From the NCBI GenBank assembly GCA_012521395.1, contig JAAYML010000127.1:38949-102948 (forward strand): a stretch of 64,000 nt of DNA, read 5' to 3'. A program made the translations under genes and the position numbers. The stretch is from Candidatus Epulonipiscium sp. GTDB taxonomy: Bacteria > Bacillota > Clostridia > Lachnospirales > Defluviitaleaceae. The notes under the pieces were generated by a model. The model saw only the letters and a list, made by a program, of their open reading frames with translations. It was not told where the DNA came from and searched no databases. Of this stretch, positions 48,257-63,846 are shown piece by piece. Within the stretch, counting starts at the first letter, position 1; the number at the start of each line of letters is the position of its first letter.

Positions 48257-48814
48257 TTAAACCCTGCTTAAATATTCTCCAGTTCGGGTATCAATTTTAA
48301 CCTTATCCCCAATTTCAACAAATAAAGGAACCTGTATTGTAGCACCAGTTTCTACTACCGCAGGTTTCGTTGCCCCAGTCGCTGTATCTCCTTTAAAACC
48401 AGGTTCGGTATGAGTGATTTCTAATTCCACAAATAATGGAGGCTCTACACCAAATACCAGACCGTTGTGAGATAAGATTTTTACCATATCATTTTCCTTT
48501 ACAAACTTTAAGGAATCACCCAGTTGGTCTTTGTTTAAGGCAATTTGATCATAGGTTTCAGAATCCATAAAATAATACAAATCACCGTCATTATATAAAT
48601 ACTGCATATCTTTTCTTTCTATATGGGCTTTAGGTAACTTTTCAGTTGGTCTGAAAGTTTTTTCAATAATTCCACCTGTTTTTAAATTTTTCAATTTTGT
48701 TCGTACAAATGCAGCTCCTTTTCCAGGTTTAACATGTTGAAATTCAACAACTGTATATATTTCTCCTTCTAATTCAATAGTTAATCCATTTCTAAAATCT
48801 CCTGCAGAAACCAT
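48257..48814 (-). CDS. efp: Elongation factor P
   Basis: EF-P relieves ribosomes stalled at polyproline stretches. The 185-residue protein has the KOW-like domain I with [16 protein letters not shown] near 27-42, whose loop Lys32 is the usual modification site. Two OB domains follow, ending [17 protein letters not shown], which is the family signature. GAGGAGG lies six bases before the chosen ATG; a TTG five codons upstream overlaps that site. It follows papQ, the efp neighbour in many Firmicutes. Confidence 0.97.
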
Positions 48815-48896
48815 ATATTTCCTCCTCAATCATAAATTCGATATATTACACCTTGTTTAGTTTAAAACAAAATGAAAACTTTTTCAATTATTAATT

Positions 48897-49964
48897 TTAA
48901 ATTTCTATAAGTTCTTTAGGGGATTTCGTTAAAATTTCAATACCATCATCCGTAATAAGAACCAGGTCTTCAATCCGAACGCCACCAAAATCAGGAATAT
49001 AGATACCTGGCTCTACTGTAACCACCATACCAGGCAAAAATTCTTCTTCCTCATTCTTAGATAATCTTGGATTTTCGTGGATTTCCATACCCACACAATG
49101 ACCTAAACCATGACCAAAACAAGACCCATAGCCTTTCATTTCAATATAATCTCTGGCTATCTTATCAATTTCTTTTCCTCTTTTAAAAGGACCAAGACCT
49201 TCAAGAGCAGCCATTTGTGCCTGAAATACAATATCATAGATTTCTTTTTGACGGCTGCTTGCCTTGCCAATCACAACCGTTCTGGTCATATCTGAACAAT
49301 ATCCCTTATAAATACAGCCAAAATCCATGACAACAAAATCCCCCACCTCAAGCTTTCTTTCTCCAGGTTCCCAATGAGGTAAAGCAGAAAAAGCCCCGGA
49401 AGCAACTATAGTACTAAAAGACAAATCCGAAGCTCCATGTTTTTTCATATAATATTCTAATTCTAAAGCAATATCTCTTTCAGATATACCTGCTTTCAGG
49501 AAAGATAAAATATGCCTGAAAGCCTCGTCTCCAATTGCTGCTGCCTGCTTTATTCTCTTTATTTCATCTTTATCTTTTATTTTTCTGATATTTTCTACAA
49601 GCTTTTCTGTCGGAACAAGCTGGGCATCCAGCTTTTCATTATATTCTCTGTATTCTTTATAAGAAAGCTTTTCTGCTTCAATAGCTAGACGGTTTATATT
49701 TTCCTTTTTGATAAATTTATTTATTTCATTATATAAACCTTCCGCCATGTAATCTATTATGATAAAATCAGTTGCCTGCTTTTTGGCCTGTTCTATGTAA
49801 CGGAAATCTGTCAGCAAAACCGCCAAACTCTGAGAAATTAACAATATTCCTGCAGAGCCCGTAAAACCACTAAGGTATTTCCGGTTAACCGGACTGTGAA
49901 TCATTATCCCATCAAGCTGATTATCTATTAATAGTTTTCTAATCTTTGTCAGTCTTTCCTTCAT
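48897..49964 (-). CDS. papQ: M24-family Xaa-Pro aminopeptidase
   Basis: This aminopeptidase P/Xaa-Pro dipeptidase removes N-terminal residues before proline. The 355-residue protein has an N-terminal creatinase-like domain with SPVNRKYLSGFTGSAGIL near 24-41. The pita-bread metal centre consists of MDFGCIYKGYCSDMTRT near 212-228, GHGLGHCVGMEIHENP near 280-295 and VTVEPGIYIPDFGGVRIEDL near 310-329. These provide the two Asp, one His and two Glu ligands. Its start overlaps the end of aroQ. It sits immediately before efp, a common pairing. Confidence 0.95.
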   Translation of the reverse strand: MKERLTKIRKLLIDNQLDGIMIHSPVNRKYLSGFTGSAGILLISQSLAVLLTDFRYIEQAKKQATDFIIIDYMAEGLYNEINKFIKKENINRLAIEAEKLSYKEYREYNEKLDAQLVPTEKLVENIRKIKDKDEIKRIKQAAAIGDEAFRHILSFLKAGISERDIALELEYYMKKHGASDLSFSTIVASGAFSALPHWEPGERKLEVGDFVVMDFGCIYKGYCSDMTRTVVIGKASSRQKEIYDIVFQAQMAALEGLGPFKRGKEIDKIARDYIEMKGYGSCFGHGLGHCVGMEIHENPRLSKNEEEEFLPGMVVTVEPGIYIPDFGGVRIEDLVLITDDGIEILTKSPKELIEI

Positions 49965-50427
49965 CAGAATTCTCCTTTGATGTCTCGTGATAATTTAATA
50001 TTTCATATAAGGCATGAAGTCCTAATATATAACTGTTAATCCCAAATCCTGAAATTTGACCAATGCAGGAAGGGGCAGTTACAGACTGATGCCGGAATGT
50101 TTCTCTTTTATAAATATTAGAAATATGTACTTCAACCGTTGGAATATCTATCGAGGCTATAGCATCCCTAAGCGCATAACTATAATGGGTCAAGGCGCCT
50201 GGATTAATAATTATTCCATCCACTTTATCATAATAAGCTTTTTGCAGGCAATCAATAATAGCACCTTCTGAGTTGGACTGGAACACTTCCACTTTAAAAC
50301 CCATACTCATACCCTTTTTTAAAAGTAAATTGTTTAAAGCCTCAAAAGAAGTTTCTCCATAAATTGTTTTTTCTCTGATACCTAAAAAATTTAAATTAGG
50401 TCCATGAATAACTAATATTTTTTTCAT
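49939..50427 (-). CDS. aroQ: 3-dehydroquinate dehydratase, type II
   Basis: AroQ dehydrates 3-dehydroquinate in the shikimate pathway. The protein has ILVIHGPNLNFLGIREKTIYG near 4-24 with catalytic-loop Arg and Tyr, and IINPGALTHYSYALRDAI near 74-91. VEVHISNIYKRETFRHQS near 98-115 carries the catalytic His and Arg. The length is 162, slightly above the usual 145-150 because of a charged C-terminal tail. It overlaps aroK by four bases and papQ by 26. With aroK and aroE nearby, the window carries three shikimate steps. Confidence 0.96.
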   Translation of the reverse strand: MKKILVIHGPNLNFLGIREKTIYGETSFEALNNLLLKKGMSMGFKVEVFQSNSEGAIIDCLQKAYYDKVDGIIINPGALTHYSYALRDAIASIDIPTVEVHISNIYKRETFRHQSVTAPSCIGQISGFGINSYILGLHALYEILNYHETSKENSDEGKTDKD

Positions 50428-50951
50428 AAACGATAACCTTCCTCTAAATAATCAATAATCGATTTTGTAATTTCATCAACAGCTTTGCCGTCAACCTCGA
50501 CGATATAATCAGAGTATTTTTCATAAAGACTTTTTCTTTCTTCTAATAAGGATTGAATCCTGGTATATTTATCTTCTACATTTAATAAAGGCCTTGAAAA
50601 ATCATTCTTCAGATTATTATAGATATGTTCAGCCGAAGCCTTTAAGTAAATAATCAGACCATTTTGTTTTAAATGATAAATATTTCCGGGATTTTTAACT
50701 ATACCGCCTCCTGTGGCAATAATCTTTCTTGTGCCAGAAGCCAGCTTTTGGATTATTTTTTCTTCTATAAGCCTAAAATTATTTTCTCCATATTTCTTAA
50801 AATAATCCGATATCGTCATACCAATTTCTTTTTCAATTTCCAAGTCAGAATCTACAAAAGGATATGACAGCTTTTTTGAAAGATTCTTTCCTACCGTTGT
50901 CTTCCCGCAGCCCATAAATCCAATTAATACAATGTTTAAATGATTATTCAT
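50424..50951 (-). CDS. aroK: Shikimate kinase
   Basis: AroK phosphorylates shikimate. The 175-residue protein has the P-loop GFMGCGKTTVGKNLSKKL near 11-28, DSDLEIEKEIG near 34-44 with the Asp pair and shikimate contacts, FRLIEEKII near 59 and ATGGGIVKN near 79-87. The lid region lies near 115-125. It overlaps comFB and aroQ by eight and four bases, so the block is translated as a unit. Confidence 0.95.
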   Translation of the reverse strand: MNNHLNIVLIGFMGCGKTTVGKNLSKKLSYPFVDSDLEIEKEIGMTISDYFKKYGENNFRLIEEKIIQKLASGTRKIIATGGGIVKNPGNIYHLKQNGLIIYLKASAEHIYNNLKNDFSRPLLNVEDKYTRIQSLLEERKSLYEKYSDYIVEVDGKAVDEITKSIIDYLEEGYRL

Positions 50952-51216
50952 CGCTATGTTGGGGATTCCTTTTTACGATAATTGCTGCCTTAATCAATGC
51001 CGTTAATACATCAATACCAAATTGCTGCTGAAGCGTATTAATCTTTGTATACAATCTTCCTTTTTCTGTAACAACATAATGGGGCTGCAAAGAATTTAGT
51101 GCAATGGCAGCAATATCCATTCTGCATTTTTCACAATTACAGCACTGGATATCTTTAATAACAGCATCCATTTCTTCGAAAACTAAATCTTCCATATAGT
51201 TTTTAATTTCTAACAT
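50944..51216 (-). CDS. comFB: ComFB-family late competence protein
   Basis: ComFB homologues are small proteins first found in the Bacillus comF operon. Cyanobacterial members bind cyclic di-GMP and affect natural competence and pili. The 90-residue sequence has NYMEDLVFEEMDAVIKD near 6-22, a cysteine cluster CCNCEKC near 25-31, ALNSLQPHYVVTEKGRLYTK near 40-59 and a helical end. The cysteines suggest a zinc site. It lies between an isolated pseudopilin and aroK. That location makes a pilus or competence link plausible, but this is inference. Confidence 0.85.
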   Translation of the reverse strand: MLEIKNYMEDLVFEEMDAVIKDIQCCNCEKCRMDIAAIALNSLQPHYVVTEKGRLYTKINTLQQQFGIDVLTALIKAAIIVKRNPQHSDE

Positions 51217-51252
51217 TAAATCCCCTCCTCAAAATTTGACTTCTTGCCTCTA

Positions 51253-51714
51253 TCAATGATTAGTTTTTATTTTTTCTATAGAGTAAATTTTAACCCTGCC
51301 TGTTGCCGGTACTACTGTAATTTTAACTCTAAAATGCTTTGAACGCAAACATATTCTTCCCCCTGAACCAGTCGTACCTTTAATCGTAAATTTTATGGTA
51401 TTATCCGTTGAAAAAACAGCTTCTTCTATTTCGATGCCTTCATTTAAGTATACAACTTTATGATGAGGACCAAAAGCATCAGAAGTAATAAAATATAAAT
51501 TACTATCTTTATATATTTTCATCCAATAGCGTTTACTGTCTTTTACAGCTTTTGTCTTTGTGTAGAGAATATCAGATTTTAATTCCATGGCTGCTGCTTT
51601 TAATGCGTACCGCTCTGTAATATGCAAAGAAGGTACTACAATTGCAGCAATAATTAAAATAATACTAAGGACAATAATAAGCTCAATTAAAGTAAAGCCG
51701 TCTTTTCTTTTCAA
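51253..51714 (-). CDS. GspH/FimT-like minor pseudopilin (isolated)
   Basis: The 153-residue protein has a prepilin signal KRKDG|FTLIELIIVL, with Gly at -1, Glu5 and a hydrophobic helix (about 7-28). A beta-rich globular domain follows, as in GspH/FimT minor pilins. The leader is only six residues, so processing by the prepilin peptidase at 62600-63397 is expected. It sits between aroE and comFB, four bases into the aroE overlap, about 1.4 kb from the main pilin block. The cargo or position in the pilus cannot be read from sequence. Confidence 0.85.
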   Translation of the reverse strand: MKRKDGFTLIELIIVLSIILIIAAIVVPSLHITERYALKAAAMELKSDILYTKTKAVKDSKRYWMKIYKDSNLYFITSDAFGPHHKVVYLNEGIEIEEAVFSTDNTIKFTIKGTTGSGGRICLRSKHFRVKITVVPATGRVKIYSIEKIKTNH

Positions 51715-52610
51715 GAAAATCCTTCTTTCCAGTCCTTATTTTCCTTCAGTTTTTTCTTAAGGCTTTGGTACAAACTCGCTATTTTATCTTTTGAGATCTC
51801 TTGTCCAATCCAAATTTCATAAGCTTTTACAGCCTGATAAAAAAGCATACCAAATCCATTGACTGTTTTACAGCCAGCTTTTTTAGCCTGTTTTAAAAAT
51901 AAGCTTTCCCAAGGGTTATAAATAATGTCTACGGCAACTGTAATTTTATTAAAAAAGCTATCGTCATTTACAGGGGATTGTCCTTCCTGGGGATGCATAC
52001 CTAAAGAAGTCGTCTGCAGGCATATATCCACGTCATTGAGTAAATGGATATCGGACAGGGGCAAAACTTCAATTGGCAGAGAATAATATTGCTGAACAGC
52101 CTTAGCCAAATCTTCTGCTCTTTTTTCTGTACGGTTCGCAATATAAATTTTTTTTGCCTTTTGTGAACTCAAAGCCATGGCCGCAGCTTTTGCTGCCCCA
52201 CCTGCACCAATAATAAGAATGTTATGATTTTCTATCTGGATTTGTTCTTCTTTAAGGGACATTAACAGCCCACAGGCATCCGTATTATAACCTACATAGC
52301 CTCCCTCAGATTTTTTCAGGGTATTCACTGCCCCAATTTGTTTTCCATATGCATCCATTTCAATCAGATGGGGTATGACAGCTTCTTTATAGGGATAAGT
52401 AACATTTAAGCCCTGAATATTTAGTTCATAGGCTCCTTCTAAAGCAGCTTTTAATCCCTGGGAAAAAACTTCAAAAGGTACATAAACAGCATTATTTCCT
52501 AAAATTTTATTTAGACTGTTATGAATTAAGGGGGATAAAGTATGGGCAATTGGATTCCCAATTAAACCATATACTCTTGTATCTCCCTGAACGAAATTTA
52601 CTACTGTCAT
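51711..52610 (-). CDS. aroE: Shikimate dehydrogenase
   Basis: AroE reduces 3-dehydroshikimate to shikimate with NADPH. The 299-residue protein has IGNPIAHTLSPLIHNSL near 17-33 and LNVTYPYKEAVIPHL near 69-83, with catalytic Lys. IGAVNTLKKS near 92-101, GYNTDACGLLMSL near 105-117 and the Rossmann loop GAGGAAKAAAMAL near 135-147 follow. It touches yqeG by one base and overlaps the pseudopilin start by four. Its place inside a pilus operon is a synteny oddity shared with other Clostridia as far as I recall. Confidence 0.95.
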   Translation of the reverse strand: MTVVNFVQGDTRVYGLIGNPIAHTLSPLIHNSLNKILGNNAVYVPFEVFSQGLKAALEGAYELNIQGLNVTYPYKEAVIPHLIEMDAYGKQIGAVNTLKKSEGGYVGYNTDACGLLMSLKEEQIQIENHNILIIGAGGAAKAAAMALSSQKAKKIYIANRTEKRAEDLAKAVQQYYSLPIEVLPLSDIHLLNDVDICLQTTSLGMHPQEGQSPVNDDSFFNKITVAVDIIYNPWESLFLKQAKKAGCKTVNGFGMLFYQAVKAYEIWIGQEISKDKIASLYQSLKKKLKENKDWKEGFS

Positions 52611-53116
52611 TATTTCTTACTCCTTTGACGCTGATATAGACGGATAATAATTCTTTCCAGGCCTCTTTTTATTTTGGTAATCCACTCATCACGGGCACTG
52701 ACAGGAACAACTAAAATGGTTTTAAGACCTAAACGATTACCTCCCCATACATCCGTAAATACCTGATCTCCTATAACCACCGTGTTGTCTTTATGTGTCC
52801 CCATAAGATTCATTGCCTTAAGAAAACTCTTTCTTCTGGGTTTTGAAGCCTTATGAATGGCATAGAGTTTTAAGTCTTCGTTAAACTTTATAACCCTTTC
52901 CTCAGTATTATTGGAAACTAAACAAATTTTAAACCCTTTTTCCTTTAATTTCTCAAAAAAAGAGATTAATTTTTGATTTGGATACGCTACGTCATAAGGA
53001 ACGAGCGTATTATCAATATCAAAAATTAATCCTTTAATCTTAAGTCTCATTAATTCTTCTATATTCAGCTCAAAAACCGAATCAATATAATCAAAAGGAA
53101 ATAATTGTCTTAGCAT
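52610..53116 (-). CDS. yqeG: YqeG family HAD-IIIA phosphatase
   Basis: YqeG is a HAD-superfamily phosphatase; in other organisms this family acts on phosphatidylglycerol-phosphate-like substrates, but the Bacillus role is unclear. The 168-residue protein has the nucleophile motif GLIFDIDNTLVPYD near 32-45, CLVSNNTEE near 77-85, and GDQVFTDVWGGNRLG near 117-131 with the metal-binding Asp pair. It has a C-terminal basic tail. In Bacillus yqeG also precedes aroE (with yqeH between). Confidence 0.9.
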   Translation of the reverse strand: MLRQLFPFDYIDSVFELNIEELMRLKIKGLIFDIDNTLVPYDVAYPNQKLISFFEKLKEKGFKICLVSNNTEERVIKFNEDLKLYAIHKASKPRRKSFLKAMNLMGTHKDNTVVIGDQVFTDVWGGNRLGLKTILVVPVSARDEWITKIKRGLERIIIRLYQRQRSKK

Positions 53117-53157: not shown

Positions 53158-54549
53158 TTAAAAATTTGATGGTACATTTTCTGAACCTTTAGTTCCCTCA
53201 GAATTATTAGTTGTTGCTCCCTCATTTTCATTTGCATTTTGATCTGTTTGTGTATTATCCGCCGAAATATCGGATCCACTTATTTCAAGGTCAAATGCAG
53301 GGAAAGGTCTCTTGATATACTCATACTGAATTCTTGTAATTCTGGTAACCGTTTCTTCGTCAATTTCCACCTCTTCTACCTGGAAATAATATCTGTATTC
53401 TACCTTTTCTTTTGAGTAATCTGACAACTCTGCTACAGCTGGAATGTTAACAATATAGACTCTTCCACCTCTGGAAGTTCTTGAATGAACATCCACTTTA
53501 ATATCCTGTATGTTTACATTTAAATTAATGATATCATCTTTTGTAGGAATAATCATCTTCGGATATTGATTTCTATAATTGTTTTCATCCGGAACAAGGT
53601 ATTCTGCAATTGCTAAATCAGTCAGAGCCTGAGCAAAAATATCAAAATTTGCATCAAAAGCATATTCATAATATAAATGGTCATCTTTATTCATGTTGAA
53701 AAATTTATTAACAAACTCTCTGATTAAAAGGGAATCTGCACTAAGTGGCTTATCAATATAATTTATAGGTTTTGCAAAGCTGTTGTTTACAATAGTTCTT
53801 CTGTCTTCTTCTGAAACAGCTTTTTCTCCTTCTTCCTTTAAATAGTAAAATTTAATTTTATTATTTTTATCCTGTATTTTGGCAACATAAGTACATTCAA
53901 GCAAGATTTCATCTTTTTCACTGTCTTCAATAATGATATTGGGATTAATTAAATCATAATAATTTGTCTCAGGATTAAAGCTGAATAATTCATAAAATCT
54001 TTCCTGTGGTATTGTATTGGCCTTTACTTTTACATGAATTAAATAAGTATACGCTTTATCTTTACCATCATTAATATCTTCCTGACTTATTAAATTATAT
54101 TCCAGGTCTTCTACCTTGTTGTAATTAACAACTACATTACCGTTGATTAATAAAAATCGTGGGAAATGGATATCCGTGGTGAAATAATTCTTTTTTAAAT
54201 TTTTTTCCAGTTCTGCAGTCATATAATTTTCTAAACGTTCAAGACTAGCCTGCTTAAAGCTTTCATATACTTCCCTGTAATTGTCATTAGGAATTATAGG
54301 ATAACGGTTTAAGTCTATTAAAACATTCGTTGGAGCATTGTAATACTGATTAAAAAACTTTACAAGTTCATTTTTGATTTTGTCCTGGTCTGGCTTTACG
54401 TCTACTTCTTCTTTCTCCTCAATATTCTCCACCTCTTCAGAAATTAAGTCTGTAACATCCCTGGAAGTAGAATTAAGGAAACTGCACCCAACTAATAATA
54501 GAGACATCAAAACAAACGCAAGCCAGGATTTCCAATGTATATACTTCAA
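53158..54549 (-). CDS. Putative surface lipoprotein in the pilus operon
   Basis: I do not recognise this protein. From the TTG start (GGAG lies eight bases upstream) it is 463 residues with the lipobox SLLLVGCSF near residue 19. It should be processed by signal peptidase II and lipid-anchored outside the membrane. A Glu/Asp-rich stretch (about 32-50) and then mixed alpha/beta sequence follow. The C-terminus is Asn/Gln/Ser/Thr-rich (about 430-463), a flexible tail. A GTG two codons earlier is an alternative start. It is the last gene after the giant pilin and probably cotranscribed. A pilus-anchoring or pilotin-like role is a guess. Confidence 0.8.
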   Translation of the reverse strand: MKYIHWKSWLAFVLMSLLLVGCSFLNSTSRDVTDLISEEVENIEEKEEVDVKPDQDKIKNELVKFFNQYYNAPTNVLIDLNRYPIIPNDNYREVYESFKQASLERLENYMTAELEKNLKKNYFTTDIHFPRFLLINGNVVVNYNKVEDLEYNLISQEDINDGKDKAYTYLIHVKVKANTIPQERFYELFSFNPETNYYDLINPNIIIEDSEKDEILLECTYVAKIQDKNNKIKFYYLKEEGEKAVSEEDRRTIVNNSFAKPINYIDKPLSADSLLIREFVNKFFNMNKDDHLYYEYAFDANFDIFAQALTDLAIAEYLVPDENNYRNQYPKMIIPTKDDIINLNVNIQDIKVDVHSRTSRGGRVYIVNIPAVAELSDYSKEKVEYRYYFQVEEVEIDEETVTRITRIQYEYIKRPFPAFDLEISGSDISADNTQTDQNANENEGATTNNSEGTKGSENVPSNF

Positions 54550-54566
54550 AGTCACCACTCCATTCG

Positions 54567-57224
54567 TTATTTCATTCTCAAGGTTTCTAATTCATAGCGA
54601 ACCCCTTTGAAAGCTTCTATATCACTTGTGTAAAATACTGATTCAGGACTAAGTTGAATTTTTTGACTTTCTTCAGTCTTAATAGTTGCATTCATAAAGA
54701 TTTTTTCTGAATCATCTGGTTTCGCATTATAATTAGTTAATCCCAGATAATCCATCACCACTCTCTTTGCTCCAAAATTTTTACATTTTACCTTAAAGAG
54801 AATATCAGGATCATATGTTATTTCTAAATTGTTTCTAACAAGAATTCCTGCATGACTGCCACTCACTAATTGTCTTGTTGTAAGTGAATAACCTTCATGT
54901 TTACCTTTAGTAATAATAATGCCTTCGAATTCTGACACTCCATCAAAAACAACCCGTCCGTTAGAAACAATTAAAGCTTTTAACTTCTGTAAACTACCGT
55001 CTGCTCTTAAAACAATCGTTCCATTGCCCCGGTCTACAATAATGGTTTCTAAGGGCTCATCCTCTTTATCTTCTACATGAAAATCACTAATATTAATTAT
55101 TTTTTCTTCATTTTCTGCGGTTCTCACAAAGAATACAGGATTATCTGTAGACCATGTAACTTCTTCAGTAGTAAAGTCATTAAACGCATTATAAACTTCT
55201 GTTGTGGCACCAGATGGAGTTTCCGCATATACAATATCTTTATCAAAATCCATCAGATTTACGCTAACAGCCGATGTATTAATATTTTTTATGAAAATGT
55301 CCCTTCTTACAAGCATATAACCTTCGATGCCTCTGAAAGCACCCATGCTATAAAATCCAGATCCGCCATCTGAAAAATATTTTCTTTTGAGCAAGTTCAT
55401 GCTTTCATCTCCAGATAAGTAAGCGAATGCTTTTCCGCCACTGCTAATAATATCAACAGCGGTTAAATCTTCTGCCCCCTGAATACCTGCTGACCAATTA
55501 GGATTAATTTGCATTAAATTACTTTCACTGATACCACCGGCATTAAATAAACGTAAAACTTCTTCTTGCTCATCAAAAGCACCATGTGTATTAATTTGGG
55601 TCTCGCCTATACTTGTGTCAACATCAGCAGGATTACTTTTAGTAACGTAAAAATAACCATTGGCACTTATTCTTGCTGGTGCATAAAAATATGCACTAGT
55701 ATTTAACGCAATTTTATCCTTTCTGATATAATCTTTTCTTTGAGCCAGATAAATTGAATTTCCTATTGGATTTCCATTAAGATATTCTGGAAGATAGTCA
55801 ACTTCTTCATATGGTTCTCCAATGCTCTCATACAAACGGCTAAATCTTGCACCATTATCAAAACTAATCCATGCCTGGCCGTGTACAAAGGCATTCTTTC
55901 CAATGGTAATTAAAGAATTATTTCCTATACAGTAAACACCGCTCGCCTGATTAGGATCATTATTGACACCTGGCCTGTTATTAATACCAAATAAATTACC
56001 GATTATAGTTATTGTAGATTCCTCTGCATAACGATCAATCGCAACATCATTGTCAACATAAACATCTCCGCGAATCAGAATATGATGATCTTTAATAAAA
56101 TCTGACCATGTACGACTTGTCGGGTCACAATATCCTGGATAGTCATCTTCAACAGCTACTGAATGGGCAATGACATTTCCAGTTACGTCAATGACTGTTG
56201 TAGCTGTACTATTGGTAGGTGCTATCGTATGAAGATTGGCTAAAGTTACCACATCACCTTCTACTTTTAGTCTCGAACCATTAGAAACATAAACACCTCC
56301 ATATTCTTCTAATTCAGGATAGGGATGGTCAATGGTAGAAGATGGAATATAGCCTCTTGCCCTTAAATCACCTTTAACCACAACTTCTGCACCATTAGCT
56401 ACTACAAAATCTCCAAAAGTTAATACCGGACTTCTAAAAGCATTGGGAATAATACTTTCCCTGCTACCTGAAGGATCTGTTTTCTTTTTCCATTCGTACT
56501 GTTCTAACAAAATTTCTTCATGTTCGTTAAGACCAGCTAAAATTACATCTCCTTCTAGATCAAGTTCTGATAAAATATCCGTTCCGTTTTGTAAGCTCGC
56601 ATGAACTTTTAATAATAATTTATCCTTTTTATAATATTCAGGATCATCGACACCTACACCTGCTGCTGCCGCATCAGGGTCTGGCACCCTTTCCAACTCA
56701 CCTGTAACAACAATTTTATTTCTTCCATCTTTAACTTCATATTCGATTTTTAATAATTCCGGTTCATTTATAAATTTATCATTTATGAGTGCAAAAGTTT
56801 TTTTGGTTAATGCCTCTTCATATAAATTCATCTTGTCAGTAACTGAATTATATAAATAATAATTATATTTATAAGCATTTGTTTCGCTTCCATCAGGTGA
56901 ATCATCGTATTTTAATCCACCAAAATCAGATGCTTCTACTTTTTTTAAAACAGTTGATTTGGCTTCATCTGAAGCCTCCTTCATAATTCTGGGCATTTCA
57001 GCGATAATAACCTTATTGACATTATCCAGTAACTTTTCGCTAGCTGCTTCTGCGACATGATACAAATTAGAAGTCTTTTTATAAGCATTACTTACTTCAA
57101 CATTTGAAAAAGATATTGCCATAATGGCCCCACCAATAAGGAGCATCACGAGGGTCAAGAATACAACCATAACCAGGGCACTACCTTTTTCAGATTTAAG
57201 GAGTGCTTTTAAATAACTAATCAT
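54567..57224 (-). CDS. Giant PilX/GspK-like minor pilin with beta-helix-like domain
   Basis: The 885-residue protein has a prepilin-like start, KSEKG|SALVMVVFLTL near residues 11-27, but no Glu at position 5. Such pilins (GspK/PilX type) act at the fibre tip in other systems. After the N-terminal helix (to about 100) come repeated short strands with a G-D-x-x-hydrophobic-x-N-G-A/S-x-hydrophobic-x-V-x-G-D/N pattern (about 260-490 and 740-830). This resembles a beta-helix or polymer-forming surface domain. Two unrelated segments lie between. It follows the GspI-like pilin gene by 22 bases and precedes the lipoprotein. An adhesin or tip role is inferred. Confidence 0.8.
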   Translation of the reverse strand: MISYLKALLKSEKGSALVMVVFLTLVMLLIGGAIMAISFSNVEVSNAYKKTSNLYHVAEAASEKLLDNVNKVIIAEMPRIMKEASDEAKSTVLKKVEASDFGGLKYDDSPDGSETNAYKYNYYLYNSVTDKMNLYEEALTKKTFALINDKFINEPELLKIEYEVKDGRNKIVVTGELERVPDPDAAAAGVGVDDPEYYKKDKLLLKVHASLQNGTDILSELDLEGDVILAGLNEHEEILLEQYEWKKKTDPSGSRESIIPNAFRSPVLTFGDFVVANGAEVVVKGDLRARGYIPSSTIDHPYPELEEYGGVYVSNGSRLKVEGDVVTLANLHTIAPTNSTATTVIDVTGNVIAHSVAVEDDYPGYCDPTSRTWSDFIKDHHILIRGDVYVDNDVAIDRYAEESTITIIGNLFGINNRPGVNNDPNQASGVYCIGNNSLITIGKNAFVHGQAWISFDNGARFSRLYESIGEPYEEVDYLPEYLNGNPIGNSIYLAQRKDYIRKDKIALNTSAYFYAPARISANGYFYVTKSNPADVDTSIGETQINTHGAFDEQEEVLRLFNAGGISESNLMQINPNWSAGIQGAEDLTAVDIISSGGKAFAYLSGDESMNLLKRKYFSDGGSGFYSMGAFRGIEGYMLVRRDIFIKNINTSAVSVNLMDFDKDIVYAETPSGATTEVYNAFNDFTTEEVTWSTDNPVFFVRTAENEEKIINISDFHVEDKEDEPLETIIVDRGNGTIVLRADGSLQKLKALIVSNGRVVFDGVSEFEGIIITKGKHEGYSLTTRQLVSGSHAGILVRNNLEITYDPDILFKVKCKNFGAKRVVMDYLGLTNYNAKPDDSEKIFMNATIKTEESQKIQLSPESVFYTSDIEAFKGVRYELETLRMK

Positions 57225-57246
57225 TCCCTATATCCCTCCTTTATCG

Positions 57247-58377
57247 TTAATATGTTAAAATACGATAATCGTGCGCATATATATCGATCATTTCCTTTAG
57301 TATTTTTCCATTTTGACTTTGACGGGCATCTCTTACAATAATTTTGATTAAATAATTCTTCCTTGGAATAAATTTAGTATTCATTTCTACATAAATATTT
57401 CCGCTGTTACTCATAATTTCTTCGAAGCTTTGATCACCATCGTTTACAACTTTTTGAATGGGTAAAATTGTTATTTTATCATCATATTGATCCGTTGAAC
57501 GGAAAGTGGATATAATTACTTTAGCTTTAGACTCATTTTCAACTCTTATCAGCATTTCCTCTTCATTTTTTAAATCATCGTTGGCTCTTGTCATATCAAT
57601 ATTAAGTCTAATAACATCCGTAGTGTTTAAAGTAGGATTTTTACCTACTTTAATATCATACTTCCTTTTTGTACCATCATACTTGATTGTTATATCCGTT
57701 CCATTTTTGGGAATAGCAGTGTTCCACGTACCGTTTATATAGCCAAAAGTTAAGTCTTCAACAATTTTACTGGGATCACCAGTAGGATTATAATTATAAG
57801 TTGAATCATAAGTATATTCTGACTTAAAATAAGTCACATAATTTTCAGATAACAAGGTGAAATCTACTGTATTTAAAGGAGTAGCAGGAAAAGAATCTCC
57901 TTCAACTACAGGAACGGTCATGGGACCTTTTTTCAAAATATATAAATCTGTGGGATCCCCCATAGAATAACTGTCAGTAGTCGCGTCTATTTCTTTAATA
58001 TAAACTTCGTAATAATAATCGTTTGCTTTAAAAATATTATTAAAAGCTGATTCTGTCATCTCTAAAAAACTGTCAATTTCAACTGGAACGCCCTTTTGAC
58101 CAATCGGATCATTTATGGTAGTGTCATGAAGTGGGTCATACTTGGCTAATTTTTCAGTAATTTTCTTTTTGATTTCTTCTGAAAGATTTTCAGACATTAC
58201 GGTTGCGTCATAGTATCTTTTGCTGTTAGCCGTATTATTTCCTGAGGTCAGAACCATTGAGAAAATCGGAATGATAAAAATAGAAAATATAGCAATTGCC
58301 ACAATAATTTCAATCAGAGTAACACCAGATTCATTTTTGATTATATAATTTTTTAACCAATCCTTTACCCTAACCAT
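57247..58377 (-). CDS. GspI/PilV-like minor pilin
   Basis: The protein carries a prepilin signal, ESG|VTLIEIIVAI near 17-31, with Gly at -1 and Glu5. It then has a large extracellular region, for 376 residues in all, far longer than typical GspI/PilV (about 120-200). The C-terminus has beta-rich sequence with a KVVNDGDQSFEEIM segment. AAGGAG lies seven bases before the chosen ATG, seven codons into the longer frame; the upstream ATG overlaps the neighbouring stop codon. It is the third of four minor pilin genes. Its place in the fibre is inferred. Confidence 0.8.
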   Translation of the reverse strand: MVRVKDWLKNYIIKNESGVTLIEIIVAIAIFSIFIIPIFSMVLTSGNNTANSKRYYDATVMSENLSEEIKKKITEKLAKYDPLHDTTINDPIGQKGVPVEIDSFLEMTESAFNNIFKANDYYYEVYIKEIDATTDSYSMGDPTDLYILKKGPMTVPVVEGDSFPATPLNTVDFTLLSENYVTYFKSEYTYDSTYNYNPTGDPSKIVEDLTFGYINGTWNTAIPKNGTDITIKYDGTKRKYDIKVGKNPTLNTTDVIRLNIDMTRANDDLKNEEEMLIRVENESKAKVIISTFRSTDQYDDKITILPIQKVVNDGDQSFEEIMSNSGNIYVEMNTKFIPRKNYLIKIIVRDARQSQNGKILKEMIDIYAHDYRILTY

Positions 58378-58397
58378 AGCGATTCTCCTTAACCTCA

Positions 58398-59714
58398 TTA
58401 TTTATAAACAACCATTATATTATCCACAACTTCACCTGGATTTATCTGAGTTGAACTCTTAGTTGAGAAAATACTTATTCTGTCTTTATAACTACCATTC
58501 ACTTCAACACGCAAAACTTTACCTGTATTATTGGTTATGTTAATTGTAGTGTGTAATAACTGACTTTCCCTTAGTTCTAACACTGTGGAATTAATGACTA
58601 ACCTACATTCTCCCAGTTCCATTTGCTTGCTGAAAGATTTTGTTCCTTCATCAACGGTCGTTAAACTATATTGATAACCATTAGGATTAAGAACAAGATC
58701 AAAAGTAGCTGGCTGAATCGTTGTTGCTTGCACAGTTGTATATTCTCCAGAATCACCAGGACCTACAATATAATAATTATCTCCTGATTCATAAGCATCC
58801 TTGATGGCAATTTTAAAGGTTTTAACACCAGGCTCCTCAGTCCCGGGATTCACTGGTGTAATGGGTGGCTTTACTAAATTGCTGACTTCTTTGATAAAAT
58901 CCCTTAATTCATCTGTTCTAGAACCCGCTGTATTACCACCAATTTCTTTATATATCTTTTCCTGGAGCTTTTCAATTTCTCTAATTGGATTATTATATTC
59001 AAAATCATATTCCATATAATTGCGGTTAATGATTTCATCATCTGCCTGTTGCCCATTATATAAGGAAAAGGTTCGCAAATAAATAGTAGCCAGAACATAA
59101 CCTTCCATATTGCTATTAAGATCAATATTATAGTAACCACGCATATACTCTTTGAAAGTCTCATCAATATCCGTAGTGAGTTTTACATAATAAATAGTAA
59201 AAGGTTTAATATTAGCCTTTAATTGTTCTAAATAAGTATTAACAGATTCATAATAACCGCCTACTTCCATCTCTACAAGCAATTCACGGTATTCTAAATC
59301 ACCCTGGAATTCCCCATTTGGAAGCTTATCAATATCTTCAATGTATTCACCTGAAAGTGAAACCGATTTTCTTTTCCCATTTCTAACTGTATATCTCTTA
59401 ATTATCAAATCGTTTAATTGAGCAGAGCTCTCAAAAAAATACATCTTATGAGCAAATTCTTTATAGGGAAGTATTTTTCTATTGGCAGTTGCAATTTCAT
59501 TTTCACATTCAGCAATTTCAGCTCTGACCGAATCTAATTGCAGTAATTCTGTTTCTTTTTGTTGAATTTGCCGCTTTACATCTTCTATATCATTATTTAA
59601 TTGTTTGATTTGCTGAAGTTGAGGATGTAAAATATACGTCCAGTAAAGGACTATTGATCCGATAATAAAAAGTCCAATCAGTATCACAAGCCCCCAATTA
59701 GTTTTACTCTTCAT
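58398..59714 (-). CDS. pilO: PilO-like pilus assembly protein with long C-terminal extension
   Basis: The N-terminal half resembles PilO, an inner-membrane alignment protein. It has a short cytoplasmic start (MKSKTNWG), a transmembrane helix near 9-28 and a coiled coil near 29-75. A ferredoxin-like region follows with YYESVNTYLEQLKANIKPF near 153-171. PilO is usually about 200 residues. Here 438 residues include an extra C-terminal beta-rich domain after a Pro-rich linker (PPITPVNPGTEEPG near 283-296). Its start overlaps the pilN stop by about ten bases. With pilM and pilN it forms the alignment complex. Extension function unknown. Confidence 0.8.
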   Translation of the reverse strand: MKSKTNWGLVILIGLFIIGSIVLYWTYILHPQLQQIKQLNNDIEDVKRQIQQKETELLQLDSVRAEIAECENEIATANRKILPYKEFAHKMYFFESSAQLNDLIIKRYTVRNGKRKSVSLSGEYIEDIDKLPNGEFQGDLEYRELLVEMEVGGYYESVNTYLEQLKANIKPFTIYYVKLTTDIDETFKEYMRGYYNIDLNSNMEGYVLATIYLRTFSLYNGQQADDEIINRNYMEYDFEYNNPIREIEKLQEKIYKEIGGNTAGSRTDELRDFIKEVSNLVKPPITPVNPGTEEPGVKTFKIAIKDAYESGDNYYIVGPGDSGEYTTVQATTIQPATFDLVLNPNGYQYSLTTVDEGTKSFSKQMELGECRLVINSTVLELRESQLLHTTINITNNTGKVLRVEVNGSYKDRISIFSTKSSTQINPGEVVDNIMVVYK

Positions 59715-60306
59715 CTTGACTCACCGATCCCTTCGTTTTGTCAACATAGAGTGTGATATCATATTCTATCTGCTTGACATAATAACCTTTATCAGCAATC
59801 GTTTCTGTTTGCGTATTGATTACAGTATCCCTGATAAATGGCAAATTCATTAACTGTCCCGCATAGTCAGATACAGTCCTGAAGTCATTTGCTGCTCCAA
59901 AGATACGTATATAAGGATAGTCCCCCTGAATTTTTTCATTACTAACCTGTATTTCTGAAATATGCATTCCTGGAGGCAAATGGCCTGTCAAAATATCTAA
60001 AGTAGTCCGACTTGCAATAGTATTATAGTCTACCTGTTCTAAAAGATTATTTAATAAGACTTTTTCATCTTGTTTTTGACTGAGTTCTTTCTTTAATTCA
60101 TCAATAGTATTATATTTAGGATCTTTCAGTTCAGCATTGAGTTGCGCTAAGGTCTGCTTTTTTTCATTGATAATTCGCATAGGCGTTGTAATTAAAACAG
60201 CTAAAACTGCGATTGCAAAAATGCCAACTATAATCATAAAAAAACCAAATTTCTTTCGTTTTTCTATAAGTATATACTCCTGAGGTATTAGATTAATATC
60301 TTTCAA
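59704..60306 (-). CDS. pilN: PilN-like pilus assembly protein
   Basis: PilN binds PilM through a short N-terminal cytoplasmic peptide and pairs with PilO. The 200-residue protein starts MKDINLIPQEYI, containing the PilM-binding INLIP-type motif at residues 4-8. It has a transmembrane helix near 22-42, a coiled coil (43-90) and a ferredoxin-like C-terminal domain. It follows pilM by 12 bases and overlaps pilO. The motif makes the assignment firm even though the rest is divergent. Confidence 0.9.
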   Translation of the reverse strand: MKDINLIPQEYILIEKRKKFGFFMIIVGIFAIAVLAVLITTPMRIINEKKQTLAQLNAELKDPKYNTIDELKKELSQKQDEKVLLNNLLEQVDYNTIASRTTLDILTGHLPPGMHISEIQVSNEKIQGDYPYIRIFGAANDFRTVSDYAGQLMNLPFIRDTVINTQTETIADKGYYVKQIEYDITLYVDKTKGSVSQDEE

Positions 60307-60318
60307 GTTGATTCCCCC

Positions 60319-61386
60319 CTATTGTACTCTCGTAATTAAACCAAGAACATTTGACAAATAAAGAAAATCATTTTTGAAATTAACCGCATCTCTTGCTTTA
60401 ATGTTGTCTAATATGTCTCCTCTGACAGTATTTATACCAAAAGCCTTGCCAATATATCTGTCAAAATTTTTAAGAAAAGCGCCTCCACCAATTAAATAAA
60501 TAGTTTTTACTTTTCTTGCATTATTTCTAGTATAGTAGAAGTCTAATACCCGGCTAATTTCCTGCACTAAATTTGTATCAATTATTGGCTTTATGATATG
60601 ACTGATATGGCTTCCATATAGATCATCATCAGGCGCTTTATCATCATCATAAATAGCCCCATATCTCCTTTTAAAAATTTCTACTTGTTCATAACTTTCT
60701 TCGCTAAATTCTTTAGCAATAATATTGTTTAACTCATCAAAACCATATAAGATGGTACGTGTAAATAATATTTTTCCATCAGACACAATAGTGGCTGTTG
60801 TGGTTTGTCCACCAATATCTAAAAGCATAATGGAATAAGGTTCTTCTCCCTGGAAGGACATCGATTTATGGGCATAAAGGTTAGCAACTGAATTAGCGGC
60901 TATGTCGATAAACTTAACCTTTAAATTTAACCGCCTTAGTAAATCCATAGCTCCATTAATCATATTATTGGGAGCAGCAACTAATAAAACGTTTAACTTT
61001 TTGCCTTCGTCTGTATTCAAGACCTCCAAAATCTTAAAATCCGTCTGATAGTCTGACACATCTATAGGAAAATACTCCTCTTTTTGGTATTCAAGGACAT
61101 TTCTTAGTTCTTTTTCTTCCATATATGGTACAACAACATCCCTGGTAATAATGGATGTACTCTGTATGGTAATAGCAGCATTCTGCTCCGTAATATGTTT
61201 CTTTTTTAACAAATGAAAAGCAGCATTATAAACAGCTTCCATATCTACTATGAAGCCGTCACGGACAGCATTATTAGGTGTTGGATCTATTCCATAGTTT
61301 TGGACATGAATAATCCTCCCTTTTTTTGTGCCCAGTACAAACTTAATATTACTGTTCCCAATTTCAATGCCAAGCAATTGTCCCAT
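60319..61386 (-). CDS. pilM: PilM-like actin-fold pilus assembly protein
   Basis: PilM is a cytoplasmic actin-like ATP-binding protein that anchors PilN. The 355-residue protein starts MGQLLGIEIGNSNIKFVLG, an actin-fold phosphate-1 motif. LLDIGGQTTTATIV lies near 197-210 (phosphate-2) and IYLIGGGAFLKN near 302-313 (adenosine motif). GAGGGG lies seven bases before the ATG. It heads the pilM-N-O group. PilP and PilQ homologues are absent, as expected for a single-membrane cell. Confidence 0.92.
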   Translation of the reverse strand: MGQLLGIEIGNSNIKFVLGTKKGRIIHVQNYGIDPTPNNAVRDGFIVDMEAVYNAAFHLLKKKHITEQNAAITIQSTSIITRDVVVPYMEEKELRNVLEYQKEEYFPIDVSDYQTDFKILEVLNTDEGKKLNVLLVAAPNNMINGAMDLLRRLNLKVKFIDIAANSVANLYAHKSMSFQGEEPYSIMLLDIGGQTTTATIVSDGKILFTRTILYGFDELNNIIAKEFSEESYEQVEIFKRRYGAIYDDDKAPDDDLYGSHISHIIKPIIDTNLVQEISRVLDFYYTRNNARKVKTIYLIGGGAFLKNFDRYIGKAFGINTVRGDILDNIKARDAVNFKNDFLYLSNVLGLITRVQ

Positions 61387-61410
61387 ATTCACACCCCTCA
61401 TTTGATTAAT

Positions 61411-61998
61411 TTAATTAGCCAAAATTTTTTTATATTTAATAGAAACTTCCCCCGTAATGTCATAATCAACATCTTTTTTAACGTGATTATCCTGGGGAAT
61501 CAGTGCCCTTATTCTAATTTTAAAGTTGTCATCGATTAAGCCATCCTTATTTTTATCTAAGTCAGGGTCAAGATTACCATCTGCGTCTACCAGATTAGCA
61601 GGTTCAAACTCAATCAATTCTATATTATCTGATAAAATAACTCCATTATAATAAACTTGTTTGGCTAAAGAGTCAAATTCAAAAACAACATCAGGAACAC
61701 TGGCAGATGTGTCAATCCCCGGTGTATCATTCATTTCAAGTGCCAGAATTTGATTACCAGTCAAATTATCGATTTGTATTCCTTTCGCCCTTCTTATCTC
61801 TTCAATCATAAAATCAAGCACTATTCTGGCATTTTCCAGGGTTTCAATTTGCCGTTGCGTCCTTCCTGTCGTAGAACTAAAGTTAATCATAATTCCCATT
61901 ATACTCACACTAAGAATAGCAAAAATCGTCAGAGCAATGATAACCTCTATTAAAGTAAAAGCTTTTTCATCATTAATTCTTTGGATAATATTTCTCAT
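61411..61998 (-). CDS. GspJ/PilW-like minor pilin
   Basis: The 195-residue protein has the prepilin region NDEKA|FTLIEVIIALTIF near 9-26, with Glu5 but Ala rather than Gly at -1. A hydrophobic helix and a beta-rich globular domain follow. They include RQIETLENARIVLDFMIEEIRR near 47-68, which is typical for GspJ/PilW. AGGTG lies five bases before the ATG; an ATG three bases earlier is an alternative. It sits between the FimT-like and pilM genes. Ala at -1 can slow prepilin peptidase cleavage. Confidence 0.82.
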   Translation of the reverse strand: MRNIIQRINDEKAFTLIEVIIALTIFAILSVSIMGIMINFSSTTGRTQRQIETLENARIVLDFMIEEIRRAKGIQIDNLTGNQILALEMNDTPGIDTSASVPDVVFEFDSLAKQVYYNGVILSDNIELIEFEPANLVDADGNLDPDLDKNKDGLIDDNFKIRIRALIPQDNHVKKDVDYDITGEVSIKYKKILAN

Positions 61999-62013
61999 CA
62001 TATCACCTACCAA

Positions 62014-62565
62014 CTACTCTGTAATAGTTGTTTTAGCAGTTAATTGATTAACTAGAACTTCCTTTTTGACATCAAAATCTTCTATTTCAACACTAATCCT
62101 GATTAGTGAATTAATCGCATTCCAATCGTAACAACTACCTGCTGCATCCTTTATTCTTACTCTACCCTTTTCGTCAAACTGAATTTCTTTAATCAGTATT
62201 TCTGTAGAATGCCCCATCACAGGTCTTATTAAGACTCCAGCAGGAATTTCTGGCTGAGTTCCTTCATATACTTCCGGACCACAAAGTTCATATTTCGTGA
62301 AATAGTCTTTTGTATTAACCGTTACAGGATCACTAAAAACAATTTTGTATTCATAATCCCCACCCACTATTGGATTATAATGTGTTCGGGCATAAGTATG
62401 AACTCGGTTAATATCCATGGCAATTTGAGAAGAAACGCTTTTAATACGGTTCCTCTGAACAACACCAAAAGAAGGAACAACAATAGCAGCCAAAATAGAC
62501 ATTATGGCCATAATAATAATCAGTTCTATAATCGTAAAGCCAAAATGGTTAAATAATTTTTTCAT
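62014..62565 (-). CDS. GspH/FimT-like minor pilin
   Basis: The 183-residue protein has a prepilin signal, NHFG|FTIIELIIIM near 5-18, with Gly at -1 and Glu5. A beta-rich C-terminal domain contains the region with FGVVQRNRIKSVSSQIAMDI near 27-46. FimT/GspH pilins recruit the other minor pilins in priming. A second FimT-like gene lies at 51253-51714. GAGGA lies nine bases before this ATG; an ATG three codons upstream overlaps that site. It follows pilD by 34 bases. Confidence 0.82.
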   Translation of the reverse strand: MKKLFNHFGFTIIELIIIMAIMSILAAIVVPSFGVVQRNRIKSVSSQIAMDINRVHTYARTHYNPIVGGDYEYKIVFSDPVTVNTKDYFTKYELCGPEVYEGTQPEIPAGVLIRPVMGHSTEILIKEIQFDEKGRVRIKDAAGSCYDWNAINSLIRISVEIEDFDVKKEVLVNQLTAKTTITE

Positions 62566-62599
62566 TACCACCATTCCTCACTTGACTCTATATTTATAA

Positions 62600-63397
62600 T
62601 TAGAAAAATACAAAACTGGATAAATACCATTCTATAATAAGATCTCCGTAAAACAACGCAATAAGAGCTGCAGTAGATATAAATGGTCCAAAAGGTATAG
62701 CTGACTTTCTTTCTTTGGATTTAAACATTAATAAAAAAGCTGCAAATATGCCTCCAATAATCACGGCAAAGAAAAATACAAGGATAATTTTTTTATAACC
62801 TAAAAATAAGCCAATGACTGCCATTAGTTTATAATCACCGGCCCCCATCCCGCCCCGGGAAATAAGAATAATCAAAATGATAATAAATGCTCCTAACAAG
62901 GAACCTGTTAGTCCGTCTCTGATAATATCCCATGATTGTGTTCCTATTGTTGTAAAAACAATATATATTAAACCTAAAATAAGTCCAAAAATAATAAGAG
63001 GATTGGGTATAATTCCTTCATTAAAATCAATCACAGATATCACTAAGAGTAATGAAGAAAATAATGCGAAAAAAAATGACTGATAAGAAAAACCAAAATG
63101 AATAAAGATACATAAAAAAAGCAAAGCATTTACTAATTCAATGACAGGATATTGAATACTAATTCTAGTTCCACAGTATCTGCATTTGCCCTTTAAAAAA
63201 ATAAAACTAAATACCGGGATTAAGTCTAAGACAGCTAATTGATGCTTACAATTTACACAATGAGAAGCCGGAAAAACAATGGATTCTTTTAAAGGGATTC
63301 TATAAATACAAACATTAAGAAAACTGCCAATGACTAAACCTGTGATAAAGACTAAAATATAAAATAAATACATCTGCACGGTCTTCTGTTCCTCCAT
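62600..63397 (-). CDS. pilD: Prepilin peptidase (PilD family)
   Basis: This membrane aspartic protease cleaves prepilin leaders and N-methylates the new N-terminus. The 265-residue protein has an N-terminal domain with VIGSFLNVCIYRIP near 21-34 and two Cys-x2-Cys pairs (CVNC near 48-51 and CRYC near 72-75), the zinc-linked motif. The catalytic Asp pair is VISVIDFNEGIIPNPL near 119-134 and GMGAGDYKLMAVIG near 183-196 (GxGD). About eight helices follow the family plan. The ATG has only a weak ribosome site, so initiation at a later codon is possible. It lies after a hairpin behind pilA. Confidence 0.92.
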   Translation of the reverse strand: MEEQKTVQMYLFYILVFITGLVIGSFLNVCIYRIPLKESIVFPASHCVNCKHQLAVLDLIPVFSFIFLKGKCRYCGTRISIQYPVIELVNALLFLCIFIHFGFSYQSFFFALFSSLLLVISVIDFNEGIIPNPLIIFGLILGLIYIVFTTIGTQSWDIIRDGLTGSLLGAFIIILIILISRGGMGAGDYKLMAVIGLFLGYKKIILVFFFAVIIGGIFAAFLLMFKSKERKSAIPFGPFISTAALIALFYGDLIIEWYLSSFVFF

Positions 63398-63407
63398 TTA
63401 GTATAAA

Positions 63408-63440
63408 TTCTTATCAGGCACATAATGTGCCTGATAAGAA
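63408..63440. terminator. Hairpin between pilA and pilD
   Basis: A near-perfect 16-bp palindrome, TTCTTATCAGGCACAT with its complement, lies just past the pilA stop codon. The following sequence is only modestly T-rich. It may partly terminate or stabilise the pilA message, giving much more pilin than peptidase. Confidence 0.55.
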
Positions 63441-63456
63441 AGAATTATATTTATTA

Positions 63457-63846
63457 TTATTGAGCAAAGTTTTGTTCATCAGGGGATAAAGTACTAATAA
63501 GAGCTTGAACATCTGAGTTTCCACTTACGTCAACCTTGAAACGGTTGTTTGTACCATCCCAAATAAATTGTGCACCACTAGTTTGTGGATTAGGAGCTGA
63601 ATCAATATATTTGTCATTTACCAAGTCATTAACAGAACTTGGATACCTTCCTTTGTCAGCATTATATAAAGCTGCTTCTCTGGTAAGTTCTCTTGCAGAG
63701 CTAATATCAGCTTTAAGTCTGCTTCTTGCAGTCATTCTTGCAAAACTTGGAGCAAGGATAGCACTGATGATAGCAATGATTGCAATAACGATAATTAATT
63801 CAATAAGTGTAAAACCTTTTTCATTTTTTAAGCTTTTCTTAAACAT
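63457..63846 (-). CDS. pilA: Type IV pilin, probable major subunit
   Basis: The 129-residue protein has a short leader, LKNEKG|FTLIELIIV, with Gly at -1 and Glu5, and a hydrophobic helix (about 11-33). A small globular domain follows with TREAALYNADKGRYPSSVNDL near 49-70, ending LISTLSPDEQNFAQ. This segment resembles GspG-type major pilins, which bind calcium in some systems. GGGGAG lies about eight bases before the ATG. It is first in the pilus operon, and its small size and position support it as the main fibre subunit. Confidence 0.88.
   Translation of the reverse strand: MFKKSLKNEKGFTLIELIIVIAIIAIISAILAPSFARMTARSRLKADISSARELTREAALYNADKGRYPSSVNDLVNDKYIDSAPNPQTSGAQFIWDGTNNRFKVDVSGNSDVQALISTLSPDEQNFAQ

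Follow-up and report, generated by a model that had tools for sequence, protein, structure and literature searches.

Tapirins allow bacteria of hot springs to adhere to cellulose, and their genes reportedly adjoin a type IV pilus operon, as is said in the abstract of the original papers. These proteins bind microcrystalline cellulose with micromolar affinity (reviewed in PMC7142884). ComZ of Thermus binds DNA and has been proposed as a tip subunit located next to a partner pilin; its crystal structure contains a large beta-solenoid between the penultimate and the last strand of a GspK-like pilin (PMC6561018). GspK and PilK lack Glu5 and are encoded together with the H, I and J pilins (PMC9934059; PMC10191384). 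The argument that places such subunits at the tip is standard: without Glu5, no salt bridge forms with a subunit above, and a bulky insert is unfit for the shaft (PMC9934059; PMC10191384). In the monoderm Streptococcus sanguinis, the modular pilins PilB and PilC carry bulky adhesive modules and are also proposed to be situated at the tip (PMC8179133; PMC9934059).

In the 64,000-nucleotide stretch of Candidatus Epulonipiscium sp. DNA that we analyzed (hereafter, the window), the gene for a giant prepilin lies in the K slot of a complete set of minor-pilin genes, arranged H-J-PilMNO-I-K (Table 1). The genes of the locus are arranged in the order PilA, PilD, H, J, PilM, PilN, PilO-like protein, I, giant pilin, lipoprotein, yqeG-like gene, aroE and ComGD-like pilin, followed by more housekeeping genes, and this order is kept in Candidatus Epulonipiscium digester MAGs, Defluviitalea phaphyphila (Lachnospirales), Sporanaerobium and other Clostridia. 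The names of the H, I and J pilins were assigned from N-terminal matches and gene order, not from full-length family matches. Glu5 is present in all five of the other prepilins of the locus (PilA, H, J, I and the ComGD-like pilin); the giant pilin, encoded alongside H, I and J, lacks it, as is characteristic of a K subunit.

Several other features of the locus were observed. The J-type pilin (61411-62013) carries EKA before its putative cleavage site and FTLIE after it, and relatives in the same slot have Gly at -1. The I-type pilin (57247-58398) is oversized too, with 383 aa, and stays large in its relatives (325-428 aa). Further along, in 48257-53116, the operon continues into aroE, the ComGD-like pilin, shikimate kinase, dehydroquinase, a peptidase and elongation factor P, and the order of these genes is preserved among nearly all relatives. 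The lipoprotein encoded next to the giant pilin contains no Pfam domain above the cut-off and might assist the bulky tip as a partner or chaperone.

Table 1. Features of the pilus locus and predicted parts of the giant K-type pilin (positions in the window).
Feature	Position	Strand	Basis
Probable major pilin PilA, Glu5 present	63457..63846	-	N_methyl 1.5e-9; position
Prepilin peptidase PilD	62600..63397	-	Pfam A24_N_bact 1e-35, Peptidase_A24 4e-19
H-type minor pilin, Glu5 present	62014..62574	-	N_methyl; GspH N-terminal match
J-type minor pilin, Glu5 present, Ala at -1	61411..62013	-	N_methyl; ComGF/GspJ N-terminal matches
PilM	60319..61401	-	Pfam PilM_2 6e-44; TIGR01175
PilN	59704..60306	-	Pfam PilN above cut-off
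PilO-like protein, 438 aa	58398..59714	-	Position; weak PilO match
I-type minor pilin, 383 aa, Glu5 present	57247..58398	-	N_methyl above cut-off; PilV/GspI N-terminal matches below cut-off
Giant K-type minor pilin gene	54567..57224	-	885 aa + stop codon; ORF with Shine-Dalgarno; same-slot orthologues
Class III leader peptide, residues 1-14	57183..57224	-	Sequence; G14 invariant in two alignments of relatives
Long N-terminal helix, residues 15-97, PilX_N-like	56934..57182	-	AlphaFold; genome's best PilX_N match, below cut-off
Pilin head, residues 98-236; strands 169-181, 198-213, 216-229	56517..56933	-	AlphaFold
Inserted module, solenoid-like block 1, residues 237-469	55818..56516	-	Short strands, most pLDDT above 85; homologous to other giants' modules
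Inserted module, mixed helical middle, residues 470-696	55137..55817	-	AlphaFold, lower confidence
Inserted module, solenoid-like block 2, residues 697-804	54813..55136	-	AlphaFold, pLDDT mostly 85-98
Last strand, residues 877-884, proposed return to pilin sheet	54573..54596	-	AlphaFold; terminal-strand motif of K pilins elsewhere
Lipoprotein adjoining K pilin, conserved neighbour	53158..54558	-	Lipobox Gly-Cys invariant in 11 relatives

The original prediction, made from this DNA alone, had described an 885-residue protein with a prepilin-like N-terminus and Met at position 5. An open reading frame of exactly this extent was found on the minus strand, starting with ATG at 57224 behind an AGGAGG Shine-Dalgarno sequence at 57235-57240. 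It is not a chance ORF, since orthologues span approximately its whole length and the gene order is fixed. Full-length orthologues in the family and order have 850-974 aa, with M, L or I at position 5, and are 42-63% identical to the giant pilin within the family and 25-32% beyond it. The N-terminus also proved to be as described: MISYLKALLKSEKG is followed by SALVM, with Gly14 at -1, Ser15 as the mature start, and Met at +5 in place of the Glu5 that is usual, but not universal, in type IV pilins. With Gly at -1, a hydrophobic helix and PilD encoded in the locus, the protein bears the marks of a class III signal, and cleavage after Gly14 is expected.

The family assignment is less direct. The PilX_N family (PF14341) has a gathering cut-off of 25.5 bits, and the giant pilin scored below it (10.0 and 16.8 bits); direct family and PDB sequence searches likewise gave no matches above cut-off. 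Although sub-threshold, it is the top PilX_N scorer across the whole genome, and the cut-off was passed by its giant relatives L067 (35.1 bits) and L114 (29.8 bits) and by the short K pilin L038 (41.8 bits).

The giant gene is separated by 22 bp from the preceding I pilin gene and by 8 bp from the next gene. A single strong terminator-like hairpin was revealed, between PilA and PilD (63408-63440; 15 bp with a T tail), and the other hairpins within the pilus block are short and intragenic. The former is a candidate attenuator that would raise PilA above the minor pilins. The narrow gaps, in a block without a strong internal terminator, do not speak against expression of the gene with the pilus operon, a lack of which would have counted against the initial reading of this DNA. 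The monoderm setting that this reading assumed agrees with the genome content: no secretin was found in the genome by a search with a positive control, which is consistent with a monoderm. Exactly five N_methyl pilins were found by a search of the whole genome (85% complete), all of them in this locus, which is the one pilus locus detected; PilB, PilT and ComEC are encoded in the genome.

Relatives were sampled by profile search in 391 genomes of the class and 399 of the phylum. A single-sequence scan of the genome contigs revealed no relatives, and a profile scan of the contigs recovered them. The matches comprise giants (~600-990 aa), middle-sized proteins and short proteins, including short K pilins of 165-175 aa encoded in comparable operons of other Clostridia. 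Glu5 is absent from all of the more than 50 relatives examined in the K slot, where +5 is M, L, I, V, T, F, A or Y; the other pilins of their operons do carry it. The absence of Glu5 in a GspK-like position was thus confirmed among close homologues in the K slot of the operon. The size of the protein, which the original prediction regarded as exceptional, is not: K pilins of 600-990 aa recur across Clostridia and Caldicellulosiruptor and are common there, so that a giant size unique to the source organism was rejected. Short homologues with Glu5 had been named as evidence that would count against the prediction; short ones do exist, yet they lack Glu5 too and look like the same pilin minus the insert.

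The C-terminal strand of short K pilins has the form V.V..W(K/R). Outside the window's order, this pattern was found in the last 18 residues of all 7 short and 10 of the 15 giant K pilins. Overall, it occurs in 19 of 30 K pilins and in 6 of 918 length-matched internal stretches, a contrast that is descriptive because the pattern was derived from the same sequences. Since short K pilins and most giants have the same C-terminal strand motif, the simplest reading is an insertion of ~600-620 residues ahead of the last pilin strand, and this single insertion in the pilin fold would replace the alternative of a module attached as an end domain. In the window's own subgroup the motif is missing, having drifted to VRYELETLRM; the modelled strand order of the giant pilin is compatible with a solenoid between the penultimate and last strand.

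With a pI of 4.8 and a net charge of -30, the module is acidic. Within the family it is better conserved than the pilin head (consensus fraction 0.52-0.63 and 0.35-0.40, respectively), which points to a fixed function. The module of the window family is homologous to those of the clostridial giants (E 4e-16) and of a ~900-aa group (E 2e-7), compared with 0.1-1 for shuffled controls. This module family is undescribed by Pfam.

The first AlphaFold model, based on a 12-sequence alignment, had a pLDDT of 72.8; the second, of residues 43-885 with a 28-sequence alignment, reached a pLDDT of 82.8 and a pTM of 0.84 (the five models span pLDDT 78.8-82.8). Two blocks of strand repeats (residues 260-490 and 740-830) had been noticed originally and interpreted as a beta-helix. 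They correspond to the short strands modelled at residues 237-469 and 697-804, where most of block 1 and block 2 has a pLDDT of 85-98, and the model accordingly presents solenoid-like strands. The label "solenoid" is based on the pattern of strands, the model confidence and what the fold search matched, rather than on inspected model geometry. An alpha-helical insert of the GspK type was rejected, the modelled insert being beta-rich.

In a Foldseek search of the PDB, the second model matched a PL6 alginate lyase (E 2.2e-3), tapirin 4wa0 (E 2.4e-3; probability 0.63, TM 0.32 on target) and ComZ 6qvi (E 7.5e-3; TM 0.12), in this order. Nothing in the PDB fell under E 1e-3 and the TM-scores were low; we regard the result as supporting a predicted beta-solenoid and as pointing towards tapirins and ComZ. 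In the fold search with the first model, tapirins were ranked first and third. A viral fold library yielded solely beta-helix tail proteins, with E above 1e-3.

The links to tapirins and ComZ were added by the present analysis and were absent from the original prediction. The tapirin link was checked in one genus flagged by the phylum search (12 genomes), which we take to be Caldicellulosiruptor-like. Behind the I pilin of genome G650 lie two ORFs, 644 and 666 aa long. Both have matches to 6n2b (E 5e-84 and 1e-82, respectively), and the 644-aa one also matches the solved tapirin domain 4wa0 at E 1e-202. In genome G860, 6n2c is matched by an ORF scoring 1216 bits, and in G861 another ORF matches 6n2b at E 2.5e-26. 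All three solved tapirins match prepilin-like ORFs without Glu5 (V or I), located behind PilMNO/PilO. In other genomes of this genus, a ~900-aa protein occupies the tapirin slot (L114-L116). The head of the window family is homologous to that of this ~900-aa group (E 4e-8), and the head of the ~900-aa group, as the linking step, to that of the tapirins (E 4e-11); the direct comparison of the window family with tapirins gave E 3.6e-5. Homology of the window family's module to the cellulose-binding tapirin modules was rejected (E 0.15, equal to the 0.1-1 of shuffled controls). Since the modules are unrelated by sequence, a transfer of the ligand from tapirins is weak. At the sequence level, then, the giant pilin and the tapirins have the operon slot and the pilin head in common, but not the module.

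The neighbourhood of the tapirin genes has features of its own. No lipoprotein gene was seen beside them in the stretch read. The two neighbouring genes of G650 (L113:4432-6429 and L113:6812-8743) are identical at 668 of 669 nucleotides in their 223-aa head, and their modules diverge, which looks like gene conversion acting on the head while the tip diversified. In genome G862 (L138-L140), stop codons interrupt a second tapirin copy, which adjoins an intact first copy.

We consider it likely that the giant protein serves adhesion, plausibly to plant polysaccharide, as a modular tip pilin of the K type in a monoderm type IV pilus. It is probably located at the very tip, because it lacks Glu5 and its bulky insert is incompatible with the shaft. 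In the proposed scenario, PilD would cleave the giant prepilin after Gly14, and the head of the mature K protein would attach to the I-type pilin and, together with J and H, start fibre assembly. Lacking Glu5, it would not neutralise the N-terminus of a next subunit and the fibre would end there, and the ~620-residue insert before the last pilin strand would display the solenoid-like domain at the tip. This module would bind insoluble plant polysaccharide, and PilT-driven retraction would draw the cell to the substrate. Adhesion is our best guess for the most likely job of the module, and plant polysaccharide is plausible; the genome encodes one GH9 and three GH5 enzymes, in keeping with this idea, but a glycoside hydrolase repertoire does not establish that the pilus binds polysaccharide. 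What the analysis showed for the giant pilin is its N-terminus, the missing Glu5, the operon slot, the conserved module, the predicted fold and the homologies of head and module; we infer its tip position, ligand, expression, partner contacts and retraction role.

The same tip position would also suit a ComZ-like DNA receptor, with the solenoid capturing DNA and retraction handing it to ComEC. ComEC is encoded in the genome, ComZ was third in the fold search, its reported topology agrees with that proposed here, and it binds DNA (PMC6561018). We nevertheless find this function unlikely, as there is no sequence match to ComZ, cellulose adhesins occupy the same slot, and the strong acidity of the module makes DNA binding less favoured, although ComZ too is without an obvious positive patch. 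Rather improbable, in our opinion, is a mainly structural module, that is, a ligand-free bulky cap that primes assembly or aids the crossing of a thick wall. Its good conservation within the family would fit a structural part, and module-less short K pilins exist in comparable operons; however, a 600-aa solenoid would be costly where proteins of 165-175 aa seem sufficient elsewhere, and same-slot relatives bind cellulose. The sub-threshold PilX_N score could even suggest that the protein is no pilus part but a membrane-anchored beta-helix surface protein resembling a prepilin. We judge this very improbable in view of the operon position and synteny, the invariant Gly at -1, and the fact that it is the genome's best PilX_N match with giant relatives above the cut-off.

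Beyond the adhesive tip pilin proposed for the window, the giant K pilins, including the tapirins, may represent one unrecognised family of interchangeable tip modules in Clostridia and Caldicellulosiruptor, in which a constant head carries varied solenoid adhesins and many anaerobic polymer degraders attach to their substrate via retractable tips; we lean slightly against this broader view. Attachment by monoderm type IV pili is poorly understood, and monoderms are not known to have PilY1. A conserved giant K pilin in the tapirin slot is a concrete candidate for a tip adhesin of such pili, and tapirins, which were described as structurally unique adhesins, are recast as minor pilins. The novelty may lie in the breadth of the giant-K group and in the link between tapirins and pilins. 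PilFind accepts only proteins of up to 350 aa with D or E at +5 (PMC3244431), and modular pilins were surveyed by means of IPR012902 (PMC8179133); giant K pilins would therefore be missed, and, being common in Clostridia, they expose a blind spot in pilin finding.

In kind, the architecture of the giant pilin is already known from ComZ, and from tapirins if their N-termini are read as prepilins; the giant pilin is a new member of this kind. GspK/PilK also lack Glu5 and belong to a set with H, I and J, but the insert of GspK is alpha-helical and not a solenoid. In S. sanguinis, PilB and PilC differ by their C-terminal modules (vWA, lectin) and canonical SPIII, and Glu5 is missing there from the small PilA. 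ComZ of Thermus thermophilus (6qvi) belongs to a diderm, its module has ~380 residues compared with ~620, and PDB sequence searches detected no similarity between the two proteins; it resembles the giant pilin in its adjoining partner pilin and proposed tip position, and its large insert before the last strand agrees with the placement proposed for the module of the giant pilin. The tapirins (4wa0, 6n2b and 6n2c) are shorter (595-714 aa seen), and their cellulose binding has been measured; they are like the giant pilin in the prepilin N-terminus without Glu5, the slot behind PilMNO/I, the related head and the beta-helix module, reported for tapirins and predicted here.
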